Origin: Cornus controversa
Lineage: Eukaryota > Streptophyta > Magnoliopsida > Cornales > Cornaceae
Assembly: GCA_026545225.1 (NCBI GenBank)
Contig: CM048848.1
Coordinates: forward strand, 46,780,306-46,844,305
Direction of reading: 5' to 3'
Length of the DNA: 64,000 nucleotides
Positions 1,218 to 59,039 of the stretch are shown here, piece after piece. A model generated the notes under the pieces. That model worked only from the letters and a program-made list of their open reading frames with translations, was not told the DNA's origin and made no database searches. Position numbers and translations under genes: made by a program. Position 1 is the stretch's first letter, and every line of letters starts with the position of its first letter.

Positions 1218-4200
1218 ATGGATGCGAACAACGGGGAAGAATTCGCAGTGGGCTGCATTCTATCCATCAAAACCACTCTGGGCGACGAGTTCGACGGCCA
1301 AGTTATCACGTTCGACCGACCCTCCAACATCCTCGTTCTTCATATCCTTTTCTTTATTTAACGTCACTACTTTGTCTCTCTTCATTGCTTAAACCCTAAA
1401 ATTTGATATCTGTTTGTGTTGTTGACATCTACAATTTGAATTCCATAACTGTGTGTTTGATTGTCACAAGAGGGTTTGAACTCTGGATCTGGACCAAAGC
1501 GAAACATTAGGCTATTGAAGGCCAACTACGTTAAGGAGTTCTCCTACTTGGGTAAAGCGGAAGACCCTCTTGATCTCAAAAAATGTTACCTTGATCTTCC
1601 TGGTCTCCAAGCTAGGGAAGATTCAGCCATTAGGTAATAATTAATATTTGATGACAATCCATTTTTTGAATTCTTTTGTTGTTTTCATTTTCCTATGTCA
1701 TTTCAATTTGTACTTTTTTTTTTTTCTTCTTAGTTATGATTTTATGAGCTGAAATGGTGAATTGCAGACAAGCAGAGATGGAAGCTGAGAGGATAGGTGT
1801 GGGTGTTACCCCCGAGGCTCAGAACATTTTTGACGCGTTGTCTAAAACGTAATAACTTTACCCTTTTCATTAATTACTATTATTTATTTATTTTTACTAA
1901 AGCCATAGTCTTTTGCATGTATAATAACCCCCTTTTAGACGATTACGTATTCCACAGCTTGTTCACTAACTCTGAGCATGTTGCAGTGCCTGATATCATA
2001 ATTATGCATTATATTCAACTTATATTGTCTTTCGACCAGTCAAGATCTTTTATTCTTTGTTTAAATGATCCCAGAATGTCATTTGAAGTGTACAATTGTA
2101 GGCCATTATCAATTTCTTGTTGGGACTTTATATGTACAAGAAAAAAATAACCAAGTTTGGAGAAATACTGAAATAGTGATAAAGGAACGTTACTTTAGCT
2201 GAATAAGAACTACAGCATGCATGTATTTAAGATTGACGATAAAAGATGCCGAAGGTTGAGGATTTTTGTTATCTAGGCTCTAGCAGTCATAAAGAGGATG
2301 ATATGGGCGAGGATGTTTCTCATGGTTTTAAAGGAAAATGGGTTAACTGGATGAGTGCTCATGGAGTATTGTGTGATTGATGTAAAACTATGAATTTGAA
2401 AGGAAATTTCTGCAAGTTAGTTATAAGACTAGTTATGCTATATAGAACTGATGTGGACAGTTAAGAAATGACAAATTCATGATATTACCTTGTATGAAAT
2501 GTATATGTTAAGATGGGGGTGTGATAAAACAATAAAATTAAAAGAGTGTGTGTGTACCGTGTCTATATATATATATATGCGTATTAGAAAATTGTAAAAG
2601 TAACACTAATTGGAGATAACATGGGAGAAAATTGATAATGATGATTCTGTCCTATGCAATGAGAACTAATATTTGCATGAGAGAGTGTCATTATGCACAT
2701 CGAGGATAATAATAAGTAAAGGAAAAACCAACACTAGTTATATTGCCGAGGCTCAGAACGTTTTTGATGAGTTGTCTAAAATATAATAACTTTACTGTTT
2801 TCGCAGCTTATTCATCTTATTCCTTCTCTCTCTCTCTCTCTCTCTTAAAGTGGTAGTCTTTTGCAAGTATAACTTGCCCTCCCTTAGTGACTACATATTC
2901 TGATGTTCCACAGCTTGTTCACCAACTCTAAGATGTTGCAGTGCTTTATATCATAATTATATATTATTTATAAATTATACTGTATGTAAACCAGTCGAGG
3001 ACCTTTCTTTATTCTTTGTTTAAATTTGCCCATTATGTCATTTGAAGTGTACAATTGTTAGTCATTATCAATTTTTATGTGAGGACTTTTTTTATTTTAT
3101 ATGATTTTATTAAAAAGCGTTCAAGAGGGGAGTGCTTCCAAGAGAATACAATTTTTATGTGAGGACTTCATATGTGCAAGAAAAAATAACCCAAGGTTAG
3201 AGTTGTGATATAAGGAATGCAAATTTAGAAATTGGCAAGTCTTCAAGAATGACGACAAGAGATACGGAAGACTGAGCATTTTTTGTTATCCAGGCTCTAT
3301 TAGTCATAGAGGATGATATTGGAGAGGATGTTTCTCATAGTTTTAAAGAAGGATGATATGTGGATGAGTGTTTATGGGGTATTGAGTGATTGATGTTATG
3401 TTACGATGTATAACTATGAATTTGAAAGGAAATTTTTTAAGTTAGATGTATCATATATGAATAGTTATGCTGCATAACCTTTTGAAAAAAAACAAAATTA
3501 GGTATGCTGCATAGAACCAATGTGGGTAGTTAAGAAATGACATTATGAATTAGTGTGTGGAAATGTGTATGTTAATATGGGTGTCATATGATAATAATTT
3601 TTTTTGATAAGTAGTGTCATATGATAATAAATGATAAAATTAAAAGCACACATATAATCGAAAATTGTAGAAGCAGCATTGATTAGAGATAAGGTTGGAC
3701 TTGGGAAGCAATTGATTATGATGAATTTTTTCTATGCCATAAAAACTAATTTTTGCATGATGAAGAGTGACATACACATTGAGAAATAACGATAAGGAAA
3801 GGAAAAACCAAAACTAACATAGTTTTAGTTAGAAAAGATTTTGTAGTGTATGACTACTAACTCAATGGAAGTTATGGCCATAGATGCTGTGAATGTCAAA
3901 ATAGGATTCTTGTAGCCAACTTCAAGTTCGTAATTGGTTTTTTTATTGTAAATAAGGCGTGTACTAGAAAATATAAGAGCAAAAAGATCTAGGACAAGGA
4001 ACTTCTTGAGCATTAGTCTCAAGCTATTCTGTAATATATGAAGGCATAGGATCAGGATTTGAGATATTGGCCACCTTAACATAAATATTGTATTGTCAGG
4101 GAGTGATATCATAACATGCTAATATATCGTCCCTTTTAAATTCCTAGGTCGTAACATTTATTACAACACCATAGCTACAATTTCAATAGTAACTCATTAA

Positions 4201-7200
4201 TCTTATTTATTTATTTTTTCTTTCAGAATTTGAGGATCCAAAACCCTCCCAAAACACACCATAATCCTAGATTTTTGTCTAAATTTACTGTTGGGTTGGC
4301 TCAAATTCCTATTGTGATTAGGTTTTTATTATAGAGTTGTATCTTATTAGGTAATTTCTTAGTAAACATATCCTAGTCTCAAGGAAGGAAAGTTTTTGTT
4401 AAGCAAATCTATGGTTCTAAGGGATTGTAATCCTTGTCCACCAAGGAATTGAGTTTTGCGCTCTATAAATAGTTACCTATGTTATAAGTTGAGATGAGTG
4501 AGAAGAGAAGAGGCAATACTCTCATTGTTTTTGAGAGAACACTTAGAGAGAGAATTCTTGTGTAGAATTTGTGATTTCCTTTTGATTGAGATTGGGTGTA
4601 TAAGGATTAAGGGTTAAAAGTTGAACGCACTCTTGATACAATCTTTCTACTTGTATTGTTACAATCTATATAGTGAAATTGGGCTCTCCGTGGACGTAAG
4701 CTTGTTTAGCTGAACCATGTATAATTCTTGATGTGTTTTTGCAATTTTTTTTGTGCTTGTTTACTTATCACATCGTAATATTTTGTGGTACGTGATTGGG
4801 GGCTTGTTTCTCGACAAATTGGTATCAGAGCTTCCAAGTACACACAAGGTGTTCGATAAAAGTCTTGTCTAGATTTTTCTTCATAATACGGGTGTTGTTC
4901 GTCTTGGACACTTGTGACAATCATGGCGGTAATATTATCACACAGTACAAGGTGGAGAGATTTGATGGTAAGGGTAGTTTCACCCTATGGCAAGGGAGGG
5001 TGAAAGACATCATAGTTCAACAAGGCTTAGCGCGGGCGTTGAAAGGGAAGATGGAAAGCCAAAAAAAAAATGTCAGTTGATGATTGGCAGGATATAGAGT
5101 CAAGGTGTGTTAGCACTATTTGACTTTGTATTGAGGATAACATCATTAACAATGTTAATGGAGAGGATTCAGTGCCGAAATTGTGGGAGAAGCTCTATCT
5201 AGCGAAAAACCTCTTAACTAAACTTAATCTAAAGCGGGATTTGTACAAGCTAAAGATGAAGGAAGGCAGAAACCTCTTGGAGCACATGAATGAATTTCAT
5301 AGAATTGTTGATCAACTTGAAAAGGTCGATGTGAAAATTGAAGAAGTCAAAGCCCTATTACTTCTTACTTCACTTCCAGATTCCTATAAGAACATAATGA
5401 CTACTGTCTTGTATGGCAAGGAATGATATGCTGAAGATGGAGGAAGTTGAGTCGACTCTCTTGTCCAACGACAAAAGGAAATCTCCCATTGATGAGAGTT
5501 CAAGTTCGGCTATGGTTGCTCATTGGCAGAATAGGGGAAGGCAGACTAACCAGGGATCTAATGATAACAGTAGGTCTAGATCAAGGGGTGGAGAAAAGGG
5601 TAAACAGTGCCACAGATGTCATGAGTGGGGCCACATTAGGAAGAACTGTCCACTTGCAAAGTGGAAGGATGATAGCGGCTCTGAGAATGGATCTATTGCA
5701 TATGCTTGAGATGTTCTCACAATTTTCAAAGGTGACACTCTTACTCAACATGAATGGTTTTTAGATTCTAGTTCATTGAACTATATTTGCTACGTGAAAG
5801 AATGTTTTGATTCATTTAAAGAACTTGATGATAGTTCTTTGACATTGCCTAATGGTGACAAGTGTGCCGTTGAGGGCGTGGGAACAGTGAAGTTCAAAAT
5901 GTTTGATGGGGTGGAACGCACTTTGGGGGATGTTGCTTATGCACCCAAGTTGCAGTGTAATCTAATTTTCTTGAGCCAGTTGGATTTCATGGGCTGCAAG
6001 TGCTCCATTGCAAGGGGAGTCATGAAGATCACCAAGGGCTGCATGGTATTAATGCAAGGAGAACAGAGTAGAGATTTGTACCGTCTGGTGGGGAGTGCTA
6101 ATAGCACTCAGATTTTGATTGTGGATAGGAAACGGGCTGCACATGGTAACAAGATCTTGAGACGTGTTTCGTTTGATTTATCGAAGACACGGATTGCATG
6201 TTTCCGGATAGATGAGGGTGAGATGAAAGTTCCTGCATGGAGAAGGGTTGTATTGAACCCCCCTTCTAAAGTCACTTGATAGTGTTGACTTGATACAGTT
6301 GCATGAATAAGTATTGTTTCATACTTGATTCGGGTTATGTAGTTGGAGTTTGAAAGGCCGATGAATCATTTGTGGATTTACAGACGGGAGTCTCGTGTAT
6401 TGAAGACTTATCAAAATTTTTGCCAAGAGGGAGATTTGTTGGGTTGGCTCAAATTCCTATTGTGATTAGGTTTTTATTATTAGGTTGTATCTTATTAGGT
6501 AATTTCTTAGTAGACATGTCTTGGTCTCAATAAAGGAAATTTCTTGTTAGGCTAGTCTATAGCTCTAAGGAATTGTAATAATTGTCCACCAAGAAATTGA
6601 GTTTTGGGCTTTATAAATAGTTATCTATATTATAATTGAGATGAGTGAGAAGAGAAGAGGCAATACTCATATTGTTTTTGAGAGGACACTTGGAGAGAGA
6701 ATTCTTGTTTAGAATTTGTGATTTCCTTCTGAGTGAGTTTGAGTGTATAAGGGTTGATGGTTGAGAGTTAAGCATACTCTTGAATCTTGATACAATCTTT
6801 CTACTTGTACTGTTACTGTCTATATAGTGAAATTGGGCTCTCCGTGGACGTAAGCTTGTTTAACCGAACCACGTATAATTCTTGGTGTGTTCTTGCAAAT
6901 TTCTTCTTGCTTGTTTACTTATCTTTACATCGTAATATTTCGTGGTACGTGATTGGGGGCTTGTTGAGAACACTTACAATATATAAGATTCTAAGCTTAG
7001 ATCTTGAATCAAGAGTTCGGGACACTTATTTAAGGGTTAAATACATTAACCTCCCCTGAGGTTTGGCCTAATTACACGCAGCTAAAACTTTTCAAAAATC
7101 TTGCACTGACCAACCCTCTAACAGAAGCAAACTTACTGACGTCAATTTGTTATTGTGAAATTACAATTGTACCCCCAATATTTTAACATTAAAAATGCCA

Positions 7201-10200
7201 AATTATCTAAAACCCTTTTGTACCGATCTGTAACATATTGCCTTTAGTTGTACCAATTGAAGATTACAATTGTACTGATACTCAACTCACTAGAGTACAG
7301 AACACCTATGTTGTTTGGGTGCACTACTTCACCATTTGAAAACTGTTCAAAACAATGTCAAGTGTTAGCTGAAGACTTTTTAATACATTCAGAACATGTC
7401 ACGCCTCGAAATCCAGACCGCCGGGACTCCTCCGGTCCGAGTCCAAACTCCGGGTTGTGATGTGTCATGATTGCCCGATCGTCATCCCATAACCCGAACA
7501 ATTATGGCAAGTTACCTTTCTCACCCTTGACTCCGTCGCAGACCACTAAGGTTAATTCGCAGAAGCTTAATCATTATCGTACCAACAATGTGTACATGCA
7601 TATATATATATATGAGTCAATTTTTAGAAATGGGTCCCTCATCGAAGCATATGCATACTTAAATCTCTTTATAAAAACTTGGTTATCACACAGTGCGATT
7701 GTTCGGGTTGTGGGATGACGACCGTGCAATCATGACACCTCACAACCCAGAGTTCAGACCAAAGGAGTCTCGGCGGTTTGGATTTCGGGGCGTGACAACT
7801 TGATATCAGAGCATCTAGGTTCGAACACCTAAGGACGAAGGGCAAGGGTCGGATCACATATGGATTTGGAATACTTAGAACCCTTAGGTTTGAAACCAAG
7901 TTATATGTATATGAACCGTGCTTATATGATAATGTGATTATGTACTTCTATGATAACATGCGTTATGTGTTATGTGTTGAGTTGAGAACACGTTTATGTG
8001 TTAAATGTGTGTTGAAAAGTACGTCTATGTGTTACATGTTTAAATGATAACATGTTTCTACGTTGAGTAGTATGTTGATTATTTTAAGTGCGTAGCATGA
8101 GATATTCGATTATTGTTGACTTATCTCTTAGCTATATAGCACTATGCCACCTAGACGTCGTGGGGTTCCTGAGGGAAACCGCTTGGTCACAGACATGACC
8201 GCAGCCCTTAGAGATTTTGTGAGGACCGCAACTGCTAAGATACAACAACTGGTTGCACAACTGGAAGAAACTGAAAGTGAGAGGTGCTTTAAGTTCATCA
8301 CAAAATTCAAGAAGTTGATGCCTCTTACTTTTGATGGAAGCTTGGATCCATTGGTGGCGGATAATTGGCTTGAACAAGTAGAGAAACATCTAAGAGTGAT
8401 GTTTGTGCCCGACGATGGAATGAAGGTGATACTAGCGTGGGTGACGGACATGATGTTGAGACCATGGGGTGGGAAGAGTTTAAAACTCTTTTTCTTGAGC
8501 ACTACTTTCCAAGGCCGAAGAGGAGCGCACTAAGGAAGGAATTTGATGAGATAACTTATGATGGCATGACAGTGACCGAATATGAGAACAAATTCACTTT
8601 TCTCACGCTTGCACCTGAAGTGGTGAGGGATGAGGAGGAGAAGACATGGAGGTTTGTAAATGGCCTTCACCATTCCTATTAGGCTAATGGTGTCTATATT
8701 GGGCATAAAGGTGTATGCCAAAGCGGTGGAAAAAGCTTTGATGGCTGAGGTCGAGGCCAGAGATAGGCAACAAAAGCGAGAGGCTTGGAGGCAGAATAAG
8801 GCTTTGACAATTGCTTCAGAAGGACACACAAAGAAGAGGTTTAAGAGTGGTCCTTCACATTCAGCGGGGTTAGTGGGACAGCCTATGGCACGTTCTACGC
8901 CAATTACTTCTATGCATTTGGGACATGCTAGGACAAAATCGGTGTTCCTAGCACCGTAACTTGCTTTAGTTGTGGTGATGCATTGTCCACAGCAGGGTGG
9001 AAGTGCCAAGGGTGGTCAGAGTACACAGCAGAGGCTAGCTCAGACCGGAACCATACAGTTAGGGCTGCAAATGAACTGAACCGAGCCGAGCTTTAGGCTG
9101 CTCGGGCTCAACTCGTTTGTTCATAGACTCGGCTCGGGCTCGTGATTAATGCAAAAAATTAAGCTCGAGCTCTGGCTCGGGCTCGTTTTAAAAAGCTCGG
9201 GCTCGATTCAGCTTGGCTCGTTTAAGAAAATAAATTTGAAATATTTAAATTCATTGTATTTTCAATTTTTTTGAATTTTTTAAACCATAAGATTTGAATT
9301 ATCTTTTATTATTTTTATATACATATTCATATACTGAAAGAGTGAAAGGTGATGTGTGATATAAGTTTAGATAAATAATACAATATAACGAGCCTATACG
9401 AGCCTAAACGAGTTTTAACGAGTAGAGCCTATTCGAGCCTACATGAGCCGAGCCTAACACTGCTCGGGCTCGGCTCGTTAATGAAACGAGCCTAAAAATT
9501 GGGCTCGAGCTCGGCCCGTTTCATTAACGAACGAGTCCGAAGCAAGCCCGAGCTGCTCACGAGCAGCTCGGTTCATTTGCAGCCCTACATACAGTCAGGT
9601 TATAAGGTATTGCCTCCACCACAGCCAGCTTTGTCAGCTCAGAGTGCACGGTCAATAAGGAGATCTACCCCTAGTGCGTCCACACAGTAGTATGGTTTTT
9701 GAGAGAGTAGAGCACATGAGCAAAGGACTCAGGGCAGAGTGTGTGCTGTGACACCTGCAGACTCTTCAGTTGGACCTTTAGTGGTCAGAGGTATATTTCT
9801 GGTATATAATTCTTGGGCTCGTGTATTAATTGATTTGAGTGCATCATACTCATTCATTGCTACATCATTTGCACGGGCATTGGGGCTAAAGGTTAGTCCA
9901 TTAGGTAGAACTATTTGTGTTGATACGCCAGTGGGTGATACAATGATTCTTGACGGAGTGTGCCGGGGATGTGCTATTGAGATAGCCGGACGGACACTTG
10001 AATTTGATTTCATTCTCCTTTACATGAGTAGTTTTGATATCATCCTTAGGATGGACTGGTTGTCAAAGTTCCATGCGACTATAGACTGTTTTAGAGGATG
10101 AGTGACGATTTGTACGCCCGTGAGAGATTGTTTTTGTTTTTTTGGGAGATCAGAGTGATTCCTATATTTCTCCGAGCTATGGTATTAGTAGTCGAGAACG

Positions 10201-11844
10201 ACATAGTTTCATCTTGGCCAGTCTTTTGATTGAGGGTGAGAAAGGTAACTTGCCATGATTGTTCGGGTTGTGGGATGACAACCGGGCAATCATGACACCT
10301 CACAAGACCGGAGGAGTCCCGGTGGTCCGGATTTCGGGGCGTGACAGAACATGTCGTAAAAATATTTTTATGCATCCCAAGCCATACCTAGTGCATGTGT
10401 CCTAATGCTAGTAAACTTTGTTCTCCAAGCTTCACTCAAGAATTGAGTTTCTTCAACTTTTGTGGTACTTGATTCACTTTGACACTTAAAAGAAGAGAAA
10501 ATAACAACACGAGGTTTTTATAACAAAATTTGCAAACTCTTAAGACACTTAAGTTCTAACATAAACATCAGTTAAGTTGATCATTCATTCAATAGTGTTT
10601 GCAGAGTATTTACTTACAAATTTTTTCTTTCGTGGTCATAAAATTCTTTCTTATTTCCCAGCACAGCTCCTGAATCTTCTTCTTCTTCTTTTCCCCCTGA
10701 AAATTCACATATATTGTAGATTGACATGCAAACTAATGGATTTTGATTAAAGAATTTTTCTTTAGAAAAGAAGGGGCACTCAATAGCTTGATTCATTCAT
10801 GTTGATTGGGCTTTTCTATAACTAATTAAGATTGTGAAATGCTTGTGATGTTATGTCCTCCCTTTTTTTTTCTTTTAGGAAAAAAATGTTTTGTCCTCAA
10901 AATTTTCTTTCTGGAGCTAATTGAATGATCTGATAATTCTTGCTGGGCAATCATAATCAGGAATCAGTTGAGTCATCTTGTGATCGTTAAACATTTTAGC
11001 CTGCATTAATACATACTTTGGGTGGGGGTATACTATTTAAATTTTTAACTACCATGTCTTTGTGAAATGAAGTATTCATTTGCATGGCCTTGAGAATAAT
11101 ATAACTTCACAACGTGTGGTAAAATTAATAGACTTGCAACCGTTAGGATGTGGCAGAAGTCATTTACTCACAATCGTTCATTTCTGCTACTGAAGGAGCT
11201 AGGATAAGCTTAAGATAAGAGGTGTCTACTCCAAATTTGTTTCTTGCTTGGGACTGTTAGACATTCAGGAGGGAAGACGACTGCTTCCTGTTTACCTAGA
11301 ATATATGTAGTTTCTATTTTTAAAGAGTTAGTGTGCACAGGCATATGTTAGAACCCAGATTTAGGTTGAGCTCATGCATCATTAAACTTATTGTTTGATC
11401 TTGGTTGCATTATAGTCTTTCAATGCCCTAAAAAATTTTGAACATAATATTTTTGCTACTTCAGGAACTAAGTTAGTATCTGCAAGAACTTACAATATTT
11501 ACTAATAAGTAACTATTGTTCGGCATTTGATATCATTGGCTATATAATCAGGCTTCCAGTGCGCTGGGACAAGACTGTCATAGTTGTGATGAATGAAGTG
11601 CGTGTTTGTAGTCCATATCTTCCTGAGTCCGTCAGTGGAGGAACTTCTGCTGCCAGGGAACGGGTGAAGAAAGTGGTAAGACACTCGAGGGAAAATACAA
11701 CTTCAGTTATGCTGAAAGTTTGATGAGATAAATTGTTTTATTTTATTTTTCTGTTTCACTTTTTTTTTTCTTTTTTCTTTTTTTCCTACTATTTAGCTTG
11801 AGCTTGAAAGGAAGAGGTTGCAATCTCGTGGTGCTGGTCAGTAA
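1218..11844 (+). CDS. LSM12: LSM12-like protein (LSm domain plus AD domain), five exons
   Basis: Exons joined by reading frame: 1218-1341, 1468-1633, 1768-1848, 11552-11675, 11797-11844, giving 180 aa and a TAA stop. Residues about 9-65 form the LSm-like domain ([19 protein letters not shown], then [20 protein letters not shown]). Residues about 80-170 fit the AD domain typical of LSM12 ([20 protein letters not shown]). The protein ends [15 protein letters not shown]. The length agrees with plant LSM12 homologues. LSM12 proteins bind RNA and in animals work with ataxin-2; the plant role is poorly known. Introns 2, 3 and 4 are GT-AG; intron 1 is best read as AT-AC. Intron 3 spans 9,703 bases and is filled with repeats, all inside one transcription unit. 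Codon phase is consistent at every junction. Identity is from recognition of the family, not from a search. Confidence 0.9.
1342..1467 (+). other. probable U12-type AT-AC intron (LSM12 intron 1)
   Basis: The 126-base intron starts ATATCCTTTT, an exact match to the U12 5' splice-site consensus, and ends in AC. TTCCATAAC at 1441-1449 differs in one base from the branch-point consensus TTCCTTAAC and puts the branch A about 19 bases from the 3' end, near the upper limit of the usual range. Splicing here gives NILVLQEGLNSG, which restores the VLQEG that I expect in plant LSM12 proteins. The alternative GT-AG pair (GTTCTT at 1335, acceptor after 1471) also keeps frame but drops four residues and has a poor donor. 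Confidence 0.8.
1812..3825 (+). repeat. tandem duplication inside LSM12 intron 3 that includes the end of exon 3
   Basis: 1812-2745 and 2746-about 3822 are two diverged copies with a period of 934 bases. Each begins CCGAGGCTCAGAAC within exon 3 and runs into the intron; shared landmarks include GTCATTTGAAGTGTACAATTG and GGATGATAT. In copy 2 the exon fragment persists (2746-about 2780), but its donor has changed from AACGTAATA to AATATAATA, so it cannot act as a normal 5' splice site. Copy 2 also gained a CT repeat (about 2824-2846) and a poly-T/A stretch near 3089-3118. Confidence 0.85.
3826..4283 (+). other. LSM12 intron 3 segment between duplication and Copia element
   Basis: AT-rich intronic sequence with no supported coding, RNA or repeat feature. 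The open reading frame on the minus strand here has no recognisable motif. Confidence 0.4.
4289..6972 (+). mobile_element. internally deleted Copia-type LTR retrotransposon in LSM12 intron 3
   Basis: Two LTRs share almost all their length: 4289-4816 and 6437-6972, both starting TGTTGGGTTGGCTC. A primer binding site complementary to initiator methionine tRNA (TGGTATCAGAGC, 4820-4831) follows the 5' LTR, and a purine tract (AAGAGGGAGA, about 6424-6433) precedes the 3' LTR. Flanking TTTAC (4284-4288) and CTTAC (6973-6977) look like a 5-bp target duplication with one mismatch. The last dozen bases of the two LTRs differ, so the outer end is less certain. The internal region holds gag and the start of pol only; integrase, reverse transcriptase and RNase H are missing. 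It lies in the same orientation as LSM12. Confidence 0.85.
4924..6279 (+). pseudogene. Copia gag and protease-region remnant
   Basis: The reading starts with a Gag amino terminus ([19 protein letters not shown], about 4951-5007), continues in another frame through a UBN2/gag-type segment ([20 protein letters not shown], about 5175-5235), then a CCHC zinc knuckle ([14 protein letters not shown], about 5610-5651) and the region after the protease ([12 protein letters not shown], about 5761-5796; [12 protein letters not shown]). The aspartate motif reads DSS where Copia proteases have D-S/T-G. An A-run near 5060-5069 shifts the frame, an in-frame TGA follows at about 5120, and further shifts occur near 5413 and 5710. 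The pol part after the protease is absent, so this is a dead, non-autonomous copy. Confidence 0.8.
6978..7391 (+). other. LSM12 intron 3 segment between Copia and Gypsy elements
   Basis: AT-rich. The stretch 7030-7200 (CCCCTGAGGTTTGG and onward) resembles the edge of the MITE type seen at 50100, but I cannot place a second end. No coding feature is supported. Confidence 0.3.
7397..7797 (+). repeat. Gypsy 5' LTR with about 105-bp terminal inverted repeats
   Basis: The first about 105 bases of the LTR and its last about 105 bases are inverted copies, differing at scattered positions; matching landmarks are CATCCCATAACCCGAACAAT on one arm and ATTGTTCGGGTTGTGGGATG on the other. About 190 bases separate them. 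The surviving 3' LTR end (10233-10346) is also an inverted match to the LTR start, extending to about 138 bases (7397-7535) and including GGTGAGAAAGGTAACTTGCC. RNA from this intron could therefore fold into a short-loop and a long-loop hairpin. Confidence 0.8.
8144..10101 (+). pseudogene. Gypsy gag-protease remnant interrupted by a MITE
   Basis: Gag begins at 8144 ([15 protein letters not shown]) and includes a retrotransposon-gag segment ([20 protein letters not shown], about 8330-8390). After about 8437 it continues in another frame ([20 protein letters not shown]), stops at 8680, and continues in the first frame ([20 protein letters not shown], about 8709-8768). A CX2C piece (CFSCGD, about 8962-8980) may be the rest of a zinc knuckle. 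The retropepsin-like domain is at 9739-10101 ([20 protein letters not shown], then [19 protein letters not shown]); the active-site triplet reads DLS where D-S/T-G is expected. Frameshifts, stops, the MITE at 9060-9587 and the missing pol make it non-functional. Confidence 0.8.
9060..9587. mobile_element. hAT-type MITE nested in the Gypsy element
   Basis: Perfect 8-bp target duplication CATACAGT at 9052-9059 and 9588-9595, the length made by hAT transposases. The ends are inverted: TAGGGCTGCAAATGAAC at the left, GTTCATTTGCAGCCCTA at the right, extending with GAACCGAGC/GCTCGG. Subterminal regions are rich in GCTCGGGCTCG and CGAGCC motifs. There is no transposase. Length 528 bp. Confidence 0.9.
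10352..11551 (+). other. remaining 3' part of LSM12 intron 3
   Basis: AT-rich intronic sequence with no recognisable element. It ends at the acceptor ATCAG before exon 4 (11552). I see no coding or RNA feature. Confidence 0.5.
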
Positions 11845-12472: not shown

Positions 12473-12910
12473 GGTGGAGGTTGGAGATTTGAACCAGCAA
12501 ATCTGTCATTCTAAGAATATGCTGCCACTTGGGAATTTCAAGGTTGGATAAGAGGAAACTTCAACTCCACTAATGCTTATTTTGAGAGGTAAGATTAAAG
12601 GAATGCCTTGAGAGACATCAATCAGGTGTTGTGCTTGTGAGAGGAGAGAGGTGTGATTGTTACCGTCCACTCATCCAAACTACTTAACAGAGGTGGAGGT
12701 TTTGATATTTGAACCAGCAAATATGTCATTCTAAGAATATGCTGCCGCTTATGAATTTCAAGGTTGGATAAGAGGAAACTTCAACTCCGCTAATGCTTAT
12801 TTTGAGAGGTAAGATTAAAGGAATGCCTTGAGAGATACCAATCAGGTGTTGTGCTTGGGAGAGGAGAGAGGTGTGATGGTTACCGTCCACTCATCCAAAC
12901 CACTTAACAG
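12473..12910. repeat. two tandem copies of a 219-bp unit
   Basis: 12473-12691 and 12692-12910 match along their length with few differences (shared landmarks GAACCAGCAAAT, CATTCTAAGAATATGCTGCC, ACCGTCCACTCATCCAAAC). A third partial start, AGGTGTTGTGCTTG, follows at 12911. No coding potential is recognised. Confidence 0.85.
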
Positions 12911-15900
12911 AGGTGTTGTGCTTGTAAAGCCCTGATTCTCCTTGATCATCTTTACGCGTGGTCTTGAAATTGAAATATGAGACAACTGGAGGATATAGAA
13001 ATTGGTGGAACACCAACAACATATGCGTTTTGTATACAAGATTATGATGTAAATACTTATCTTCTATTTCATTATTTAACCATTATTTTTAGCTTATTGT
13101 AGGGTTATAAGGATGATTGTAACTTTCAACTGTTTTCCTAACAATCTGTTGGTGCCGGTAAAGAAGAGGGAACATGCTCTAAGGGAAATGGTTAGGTTAA
13201 CCATTTGATTATGCAGGGAATGTTTCTAACAGGGTTATATCTTGAATTAAGAATAATTGGGTAAGTGACAAGTGAAATTTTCAATTATAATTTGCTAAGA
13301 TCAAGGGTTTCCAACCTTTTCATGAATTAGTGATATTGGCTCAAAAAAAAAAAAATCGCGTACTCACGAGGCATGCACAAAACTATAGGAAACAGTTATG
13401 AACTAAAAGAATTTAAAAAGTCTAGGAAGGAGTAGGAGTGGCAATTCTTGAAGTTCTAGGAGGAAAGCAAAGCAAAAGTTAACCAGTCACTTCATAAGCT
13501 ATTAATTTTAAGGTAAGAGAGCTAGGGAAAGTATGTGGAAAGTAACTTCAGTAAAAGTAGTAGTATATATGTTGGGCTAGTAAAAAACTGATATTTGCAA
13601 GAGACTAGCACAATCAATTTTGTGATTTTAGATTGATCATTTGTGAGGAATGGATTATTGAAGTGGGGTTGCTGTCTGTGCATTAGGCCTGGACTTCTGA
13701 TGTTGAAATTACCTACGCTATGCAGACGCCGTATACCTATTAAGTTCGAAGGAAAAATGCCATAAGATGGCCAAAGACAAACCTTGTATAATTTGCTGGA
13801 ATGAGATCATTTTGATGGCTGAATGGTGTAATAAAAGAAGAGATAGATTGGCAGCTGAATGCTTTCACTATAAGACATGTTTAGAAGTGAATGTAGTGAA
13901 GAAGAGGATGGTGAGATGGATGATTGCTATAAAATAAGAAATGAATGTGTCAATGGATTGTAGGATATAAGACCAATTGAGAGCAAGAGAAATGGACTTT
14001 TGAGGGATAGAACTGGCACCCTAGGCTCTGTTAGGTTAGAGTATGCAATATCCCAGACTAGACCCAGTGGGGGTGAATAGGTCTCAAAACTAAAACAATC
14101 ACTTTAACATAAATTTAAACTTCTTGTATAAACTGAAATTCAAGTATAACTAACTAAGCAAGTAAAAATCCATAGCTTGCAGGAAATAAAGAGAACTTGC
14201 CAAATAAGAACAATAATTTTTTACGTGAAAAACTCCATAGGTAAAAAACCACATGACATAATCCAGGCACATCAACTCACTATATGAAAAAAGGAAATCA
14301 CAACCTTAGGTATTAAATTCTGACCCTAGAATCACCTAATTACATCTAAATCCAGACTCGTGTGAACTGTTCCTCCTCAGACATTGCTGTTGTTCAACGA
14401 ATCCGCTCTTATCGTGATCCACTACTCAACATGTGATTGATCTCATTTACTAGCTGTCCAAGCTTTAGGTTGTGTGGAATAAATTGTGTCGAACTCCTTC
14501 AAGCACTAGGATTGTAGATGATCAACACTCAAACACATTCAATGATGAATGAAAGAAATAAAATTTTAGTAATTTGATTGCTAGATTGCATCTACCATGC
14601 TTCTCAATGCAATGCTTATCTCTGTTTCTGATAAGATAGGGGTATTTTGATAAAAGTTTGAGGCTGAAAAGACTAGGTTTTAAAATTTTAAAATCTTTTT
14701 GGGAACTGCCAAATGTGTTAGATCGATCCAAAACCAGGTTCGATCGAACCTGGTCCAGTATTGATGCTTCGATCAATCAAACTTCCCTGCACTTGGATAA
14801 CTTAGGTTTATGTATGAAAACATTTTTTATGCTCTTAAAACATAATTTAAGGATCAAAACATGTATGTTATGAACCTTAACATGATTAACTGACTAGTGT
14901 TGGATTGATTAATATCTCTTGAACATGTCATCAGGAACCAATACTTTATAATAGGAGCCATAGCTGGACTGTTCTCGTATCTCCTCTGTTGTCCCAATGA
15001 ATAGAGGTGGTGTCAAAATCCAAAGCACCAAATCATGAATTTCTAGGAATTAGGGCAGAATGTATCGAGGCCTGAGTTTTGTATTCTAAGAAATAATGCA
15101 GGAAAAGAAAAAGTGACTTTGAACCAATGTTCCTAAAGTAGAAGTTGCTAGATTTCTGAGATCTAACTTATTCATGCAGCAGTTATGTCGGCAACATTTA
15201 TGTTAATGGTTTCTAATTGTGAAAACTAAAAAAACTAGTTTTTAGTGGTTAACATAACTGAACTGAGTGATGCTGGTTTTTTTTTCTTCTTCTTCAACTG
15301 ATTTTATGTTCTTTCTAAACATCTGTATCTAATTATACTTCTAGGTTGACCCTATTGTCGAGCTTTTCTTCCTATTCAGGGATACAAGATTGTTTGTTTG
15401 TCCTTGCATTGTTAGACGTAACTAGTGATGTCAATTTCTCAGTAGGTATGGCAACATAAATTTTGAGACTCGACCAAGCGAATGTGACATGAAATGGATT
15501 GGGTTTGACCACAAAACCTATCCAAATTGAGATCCATTTTGTTGATTTTGGATTTTAATTGTAAATCTGTAATTGAAATGGGTCAGATATGGATCTTCTT
15601 TGAAGTTCCACTGTGAATTAAGGTCAAAATTGGATATGAGTAGGCATGAAATGGATCTGTTTGACCAGATATTCGATCCAGACCATGTTCATTTTATTAT
15701 TTTAGGATTTGTTTGTACTATACATGGATTATATGGGTTGGGCGTGGATTATACCCACAGGATCGCACTCAGATTTGGATCTCGGCATGAATTTTGACAT
15801 TAAAATATGGTTTTGGTCTCGGAATTTACATGGATCCATTCCATTCAATGCCCTACTCAGGATCCCGCCGAGATAAGCCAAACTCTAGTCGTTCTCTCTG

Positions 15901-58182: not shown

Positions 58183-58450
58183 AATCATAGTATATAATTA
58201 TTGTAAATCAGCCACCTAGAAGGAATTTAAATTGGTACCATAAGTTAGTTGGGGAGGGATGGAGGGACGGCATGCTTGAGTGAGACCCATTTTACATTTA
58301 CTGTAGGGTGGTGGGTACTGCTTGGAAAGAGACTGCTACTTCGTTACTAGTTCACTTCATTCTTCTACCTCCTTATCTATCTCATCTTCTTCCTCCTCCT
58401 CTTCTTCTTCTTCTTCTTCTTCTAGAGAGAGAAAGAGTTTAGAGAGAGAG

Positions 58451-59039
58451 ATGGGGAATTGCCAGGCTGTGGATGCTGCAGCACTAGTGATACAGCATCC
58501 AAGTGGGAGGATAGAGAGGATGTACTGGCCGGTGACTGCTACAGAGGTGATGAAAATGAACCCGGGGCACTATGTTTCTCTCATAATTCCATTGCCCATT
58601 TCTGGTGAAGAGAATTCAGATGACAAGACGGTGCGTTACACTCGTGTTAAGCTTCTTCGTTCAAGCGATACTCTCGTTCTTGGGCGAGCTTACCGGCTTG
58701 TCACTTCTCAAGGTTGGTCTGTTTCTATCTTTTTTCTTATACAGATCTTGTAGTTAGGTGTAAGTACAGTTTCTATGGAAGCCACGTGTTTTCTGGTTCA
58801 AAGGTTTGTTGGTTTCTATGGTTACAGAGGTTATGAAGGTGTTACGAGCAAAGAAGTATGCAAAAATGAACAACCGGCCTGAATTGGCTGAGAAGTTGCA
58901 GATGAATAAGGAGAAGCAGAGTTCAAATTGTGAGGCTGAAGCAAGAGGAGGGTCTGAATTGGAGAAAACCAGTCAGGTAACTCTCTTGCAAAGAAGCCAT
59001 TACCAATCTGGATTTGTCTATATGCATTAGTACACAGGC

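Follow-up and report, generated by a model that had tools for sequence, protein, structure and literature searches.

Minor introns are removed by the minor spliceosome, in which U11/U12 are followed by U4atac/U6atac/U5. Described counterparts of the intron reported here lie in animal LSM12 genes. According to Table 2 of PMC2831892, the first of the four introns of Drosophila CG15735 (LSM12) is U12-type with GT-AG ends, and its human orthologue is U12-type too; the sixteen conserved pairs treated in that source have the same subtype within each pair. Splicing of the minor intron of fly lsm12a has been reported to respond to minor-spliceosome factors (PMC12084885, PMC6199344), and in fly minor-splicing mutants this intron is retained and the Lsm12a protein is reduced (PMC12084885).

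Published counts of deeply conserved minor introns include 7 human-Arabidopsis minor introns conserved as minor (PMC10639083), 20 U12 intron positions common to human and Arabidopsis (PMC2426677) and two shared U12 introns from U12DB, in EXOSC5 and BRCC3 (as told in PMC2831892). In the sections consulted of these three papers on minor introns common to human and Arabidopsis, LSM12 was not found. The literature searched, in its article text as distinct from supplementary intron lists, yielded no description of a minor intron in a plant LSM12 gene. We take AT1G24050 and AT1G70220 to be the gene numbers of Arabidopsis LSM12; a search for literature on AT1G24050 and introns found none, and AT1G70220 is named an Lsm-domain RNA-processing protein in one paper, whose passage on it does not mention introns.

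We identified a complete LSM12 gene of five exons on the + strand of the window (the whole 64,000 nt stretch of DNA that was analysed), extending from an ATG at 1218 to 11844. Removal of its four introns, one AT-AC and three GT-AG, gives an uninterrupted frame of 543 nt which encodes a protein of 180 amino acids and closes with the stop TAA at 11842-11844. The gene is laid out as follows.

1218..1341, + strand: LSM12 exon 1, coding part, 124 nt, from the ATG to base 1 of codon 42; open frame with LSM12_LSM match
1342..1467, + strand: intron 1, predicted AT-AC U12-type, 126 nt, interrupting codon 42 in phase 1; has U12 motifs at each end and gives the best family match once removed
1468..1633, + strand: LSM12 exon 2, 166 nt
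1634..1767, + strand: intron 2, GT-AG, 134 nt
1768..1848, + strand: LSM12 exon 3, 81 nt
1849..11551, + strand: intron 3, GT-AG, 9703 nt, full of retroelement sequence
11552..11675, + strand: LSM12 exon 4, 124 nt; AD domain
11676..11796, + strand: intron 4, GT-AG, 121 nt
11797..11844, + strand: LSM12 exon 5, 48 nt, with the stop TAA at its end

A first-pass annotation of this DNA had named the gene LSM12, which is borne out by the open 180-amino-acid frame together with matches to both Pfam domains of the family, PF21166 (the LSm domain of LSM12; 57.3 bits against a cut-off of 29.5) and PF09793 (the C-terminal AD domain; 88.7 bits against a cut-off of 23.4). The LSM12 gene, the copia- and RVP_2-type elements and the PADRE domain described below together suggest that the DNA comes from a plant. 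In collections that are essentially non-plant, searches by tblastn found no relative of the LSM12 protein among viral contigs (21 pattern matches) or genome contigs (168 pattern matches), and a search of PDB sequences turned up a single weak and unrelated entry (E value 0.81) and nothing from LSM12.

Exon 1 ends GTT CTT C (1341) and exon 2 opens AA GAG GGT (1468), and the intron between them reads ATATCCTTTT ... TTCCATAACT ... GTCAC. Three signals were located within it.

1342..1351, + strand: U12 5′ splice site ATATCCTTTT, with C at +5; consensus RTATCCTTT (PMC2846911)
1441..1449, + strand: U12 branch site TTCCATAAC, matching TTCCTTRAC at all but one position; 1448 is taken as the branch A
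1466..1467, + strand: AC 3′ splice site, the first AC past the branch motif; the first AG (1469-1470) lies 3 nt downstream

These letters and the limits 1342..1467 agree with what the first-pass annotation had claimed, namely an exact 5′ site, an AC end and a near-consensus branch site (the one mismatch). Both the 5′ site and the branch fit the U12 consensus given in PMC2846911 as RTATCCTTT and UCCUUAACU. The distance from branch A to the last base is 19 nt (18 nt after the branch motif), which is above the optima quoted as 10-15 nt (PMC2426677) and 11-13 nt (PMC6717393) and below the 21 nt after the branch motif in an AT-AC intron of T. spiralis (PMC2846911). Compared with plant U12-type AT-AC introns as described in parts of PMC7367187, PMC2846911 and PMC2426677, intron 1 is alike in its ATATCCTT 5′ site, TTCCTTAAC-like branch, AC end, location in the 5′ part of the gene and phase 1, and differs only by the rather long branch-to-end distance and the single branch mismatch. 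The earlier remark that very few plant introns are AT-AC was right, yet of the U12 class they make up 13-26 % in the four plants for which PMC7367187 gives figures. We assign intron 1 of this intact gene to a known class, the U12-type (minor-spliceosome) introns of the AT-AC subtype, an assignment which its splice motifs, reading frame and family fit make very probable indeed.

The choice of junction was examined by scoring three in-frame junctions of intron 1 against the Pfam model LSM12_LSM. The AT-AC junction scores 57.3 bits and aligns residues 7-65 with model positions 2-60, stretches of equal length, which provides support from the protein family that is independent of the splice motifs. 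A U12-type intron with AT-AG ends would share the 5′ site and the branch and use the AG at 1470, just 3 nt past the AC, and would keep the frame to give VLQG, with one glutamate fewer. Its protein still reaches 53.1 bits, but this is 4.2 bits lower and one residue short of the model, and the branch-to-end distance rises to 22 nt; we regard these ends as highly improbable in place of AT-AC, while the AT-AG form could also occur as a minor isoform alongside it. An ordinary U2 GT-AG intron at 1335-1472, leading to SNILGLNS, likewise keeps the frame and at 44.8 bits is above the Pfam cut-off. The first-pass annotation had held that the AT-AC reading keeps VLQEG and that the GT-AG alternative costs four residues of the LSm domain, and so it proved: 1335-1472 removes VLQE and loses 12.5 bits. 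Its donor CTC|GTTCTT has 4/9 consensus letters against 5-6 in the other three GT donors of the gene, its acceptor CACAAGAG has 9/15 pyrimidines upstream against 13/15 in intron 4 (though no more than 5 in intron 2 and 8 in intron 3), and the U12 motifs would be left unexplained, so that we give this reading hardly any credence. The 3′ end of the AT-AC intron itself has 9/15 pyrimidines, a count that does not discriminate here since the three GT-AG introns of the same gene have 5, 8 and 13/15. Retention of intron 1 was rejected because it brings an in-frame stop six codons in, after ...VLHILFFI. Splicing of the AT-AC intron by the U2 pathway was rejected too, since G stands at +5 in the known U2-spliced AT-AC introns, which belong to sodium channel genes (PMC2831892), and C in this one.

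The locus might instead be a decayed copy of LSM12 whose intron signals are fossils, as the 9703-nt intron 3 could suggest, with the retroelements in it and a disrupted second copy of where exon 3 ends. Against this, none of the five exons breaks the frame, their junctions are standard, and the 180-amino-acid product matches each of the two LSM12 domains across almost the full length of the domain; the last two exons (4 and 5), over 9 kb further downstream, keep the LSM12 frame open to a family-like end. We consider decay very unlikely and retain the reading of an intact gene with an AT-AC intron.

To what extent such motifs arise by chance depends on the region considered. Counting both strands, ATATCCTTTT occurs once in the window, ATATCCTT three times, at 1342 (+), 60836 (+) and 12277 (-), and TTCCNTRAC once, at 1441. 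A search for the motif pair, which combined an exact ATATCCTT, a branch departing from TTCCTTRAC in no more than one base, an AC 9-21 nt past the branch A and a length of 60-1000 nt, gave one match on the + strand and none on the - strand of the whole window. Dinucleotide shuffles of the whole window gave a mean of 0.61 matches, and the pair is not significant alone since 134/300 shuffles of this AT-rich window yield at least one; when one mismatch was allowed in both motifs the window held 11 matches against a shuffled mean of 11.2. A local test was confined to the 151 nt at 1330-1480, where the reading frame demands an intron, with limits that were set after the sequence was seen; here shuffles produced an exact ATATCCTT in the first 24 nt in 147/200,000 cases, branch and AC alone in 310/20,000, and ATATCCTT, branch and AC together in 2/200,000.

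Intron 1 is most likely removed by the minor spliceosome, judging from its motifs. Presumably U11 would recognise ATATCCTTTT by base pairing, as U12 would TTCCATAAC; the A near 1448 would act as branch point and attack 1342, and after the AC at 1467 the exons would be joined to restore VLQEG within the LSm domain. Full-length LSM12 would then depend on minor splicing, given the stop that retention introduces. One proposal is that slow removal of minor introns limits expression (PMC2426677), which may or may not hold for LSM12. An Rfam scan of the window detected no RNA family within it, a result that is uninformative on the rest of the genome.

The animal LSM12 U12 intron shares with intron 1 of the window its U12 type, its gene family and, in the fly, its place as first intron, whereas its ends are GT-AG where those of the window are AT-AC. 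Intron positions could be compared with the human gene, for which a guide RNA at the start of LSM12 exon 3, CCAGAAUGUCCCUCUUCCAG, has been published together with a numbering of SSSGKP as residues 45-50 of 195 (both from PMC8346516). When TCT TCC AG in this guide is read as S45-S47, TGT becomes residue 43, with AA before TGT and CCAG before AA. Residue 42 of human LSM12 we take to be lysine, the protein sequence used being consistent with the length and residue numbers in print. Since lysine 42 is not encodable by the contiguous GAA, human exon 3 would be expected to open with AA|TGT, the intron before it ending in CAG; guide RNA and human protein together thus imply a start of exon 3 after the first base of codon 42. 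The AT-AC intron of the window likewise splits codon 42 behind its first base (C|AA). Aligned with this human protein, the window's LSM12 is ungapped over the first ~69 residues, and residue 42 pairs with 42; it is 30 % identical over 178 columns and scores 190, where 1000 shuffles reached no more than 55.

The intron before human exon 3 and intron 1 of the window thus appear to agree in both codon (42) and phase (1), the human side of the comparison being deduced from the guide RNA and the presumed human protein sequence. A shared position of this kind indicates that the intron position is probably older than the divergence of plants and animals, the subtype perhaps having changed since. The presence of a U12 intron in LSM12 of both lineages, in combination with the identical position, makes the human codon-42 intron likelier to be the U12 one. 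We lean towards a minor intron that is ancestral in LSM12 and that neither plants nor animals have moved from its nucleotide position (codon 42, phase 1), while its ends have switched (AT-AC here, GT-AG in fly and human); this is a leaning, somewhat better than even, because both the human junction and the U12 type of the human intron at that junction are deduced.

The introns shared by human and Arabidopsis noted above are likewise minor introns held at one position since the plant-animal split, as we propose for LSM12, and with just 7 or 20 conserved cases counted a further case bears on the age and stability of minor introns and on the interchange of AT-AC and GT-AG. If true, the minor intron of LSM12, whose product is an RNA-associated protein, would be deeply conserved and yet have switched subtype, and it is the conserved position that makes intron 1 worth following. 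Gene models that make no provision for U12 introns would probably drop residues of the LSm core or put them in the wrong place, and the dependence of fly lsm12a on minor splicing (PMC12084885) could have a counterpart that is testable in plants.

Intron 3 and its surroundings contain a number of further features. An imperfect tandem duplication within intron 3 (1812-2473 and 2746-3542; pieces 75-88 % alike, spacing 934-1069 nt) takes in the end of exon 3, whose GT donor is AT in the copy. LTR-like direct repeats at 4289-4769 and 6437-6923 (pieces 88-91 % alike) bound the stretch 4289-6923, and between them lie a copia-type gag (5124-5423) and Pol_BBD (5710-6276); no reverse transcriptase was found in ten stretches scanned. 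At 7397-10346, inverted arms of about 115 nt, 93 % complementary and starting TGTCACGCC, flank a match to the retroviral-type protease RVP_2 (9703-10098), an unusual layout for an LTR element. Directly downstream of LSM12, a 220-nt unit is present in two tandem copies with 94 % matching (12473-12915). Further along the + strand, an open stretch at 58307-58750 with a match to the PADRE domain (PF14009, 66.8 bits) is probably a separate gene.
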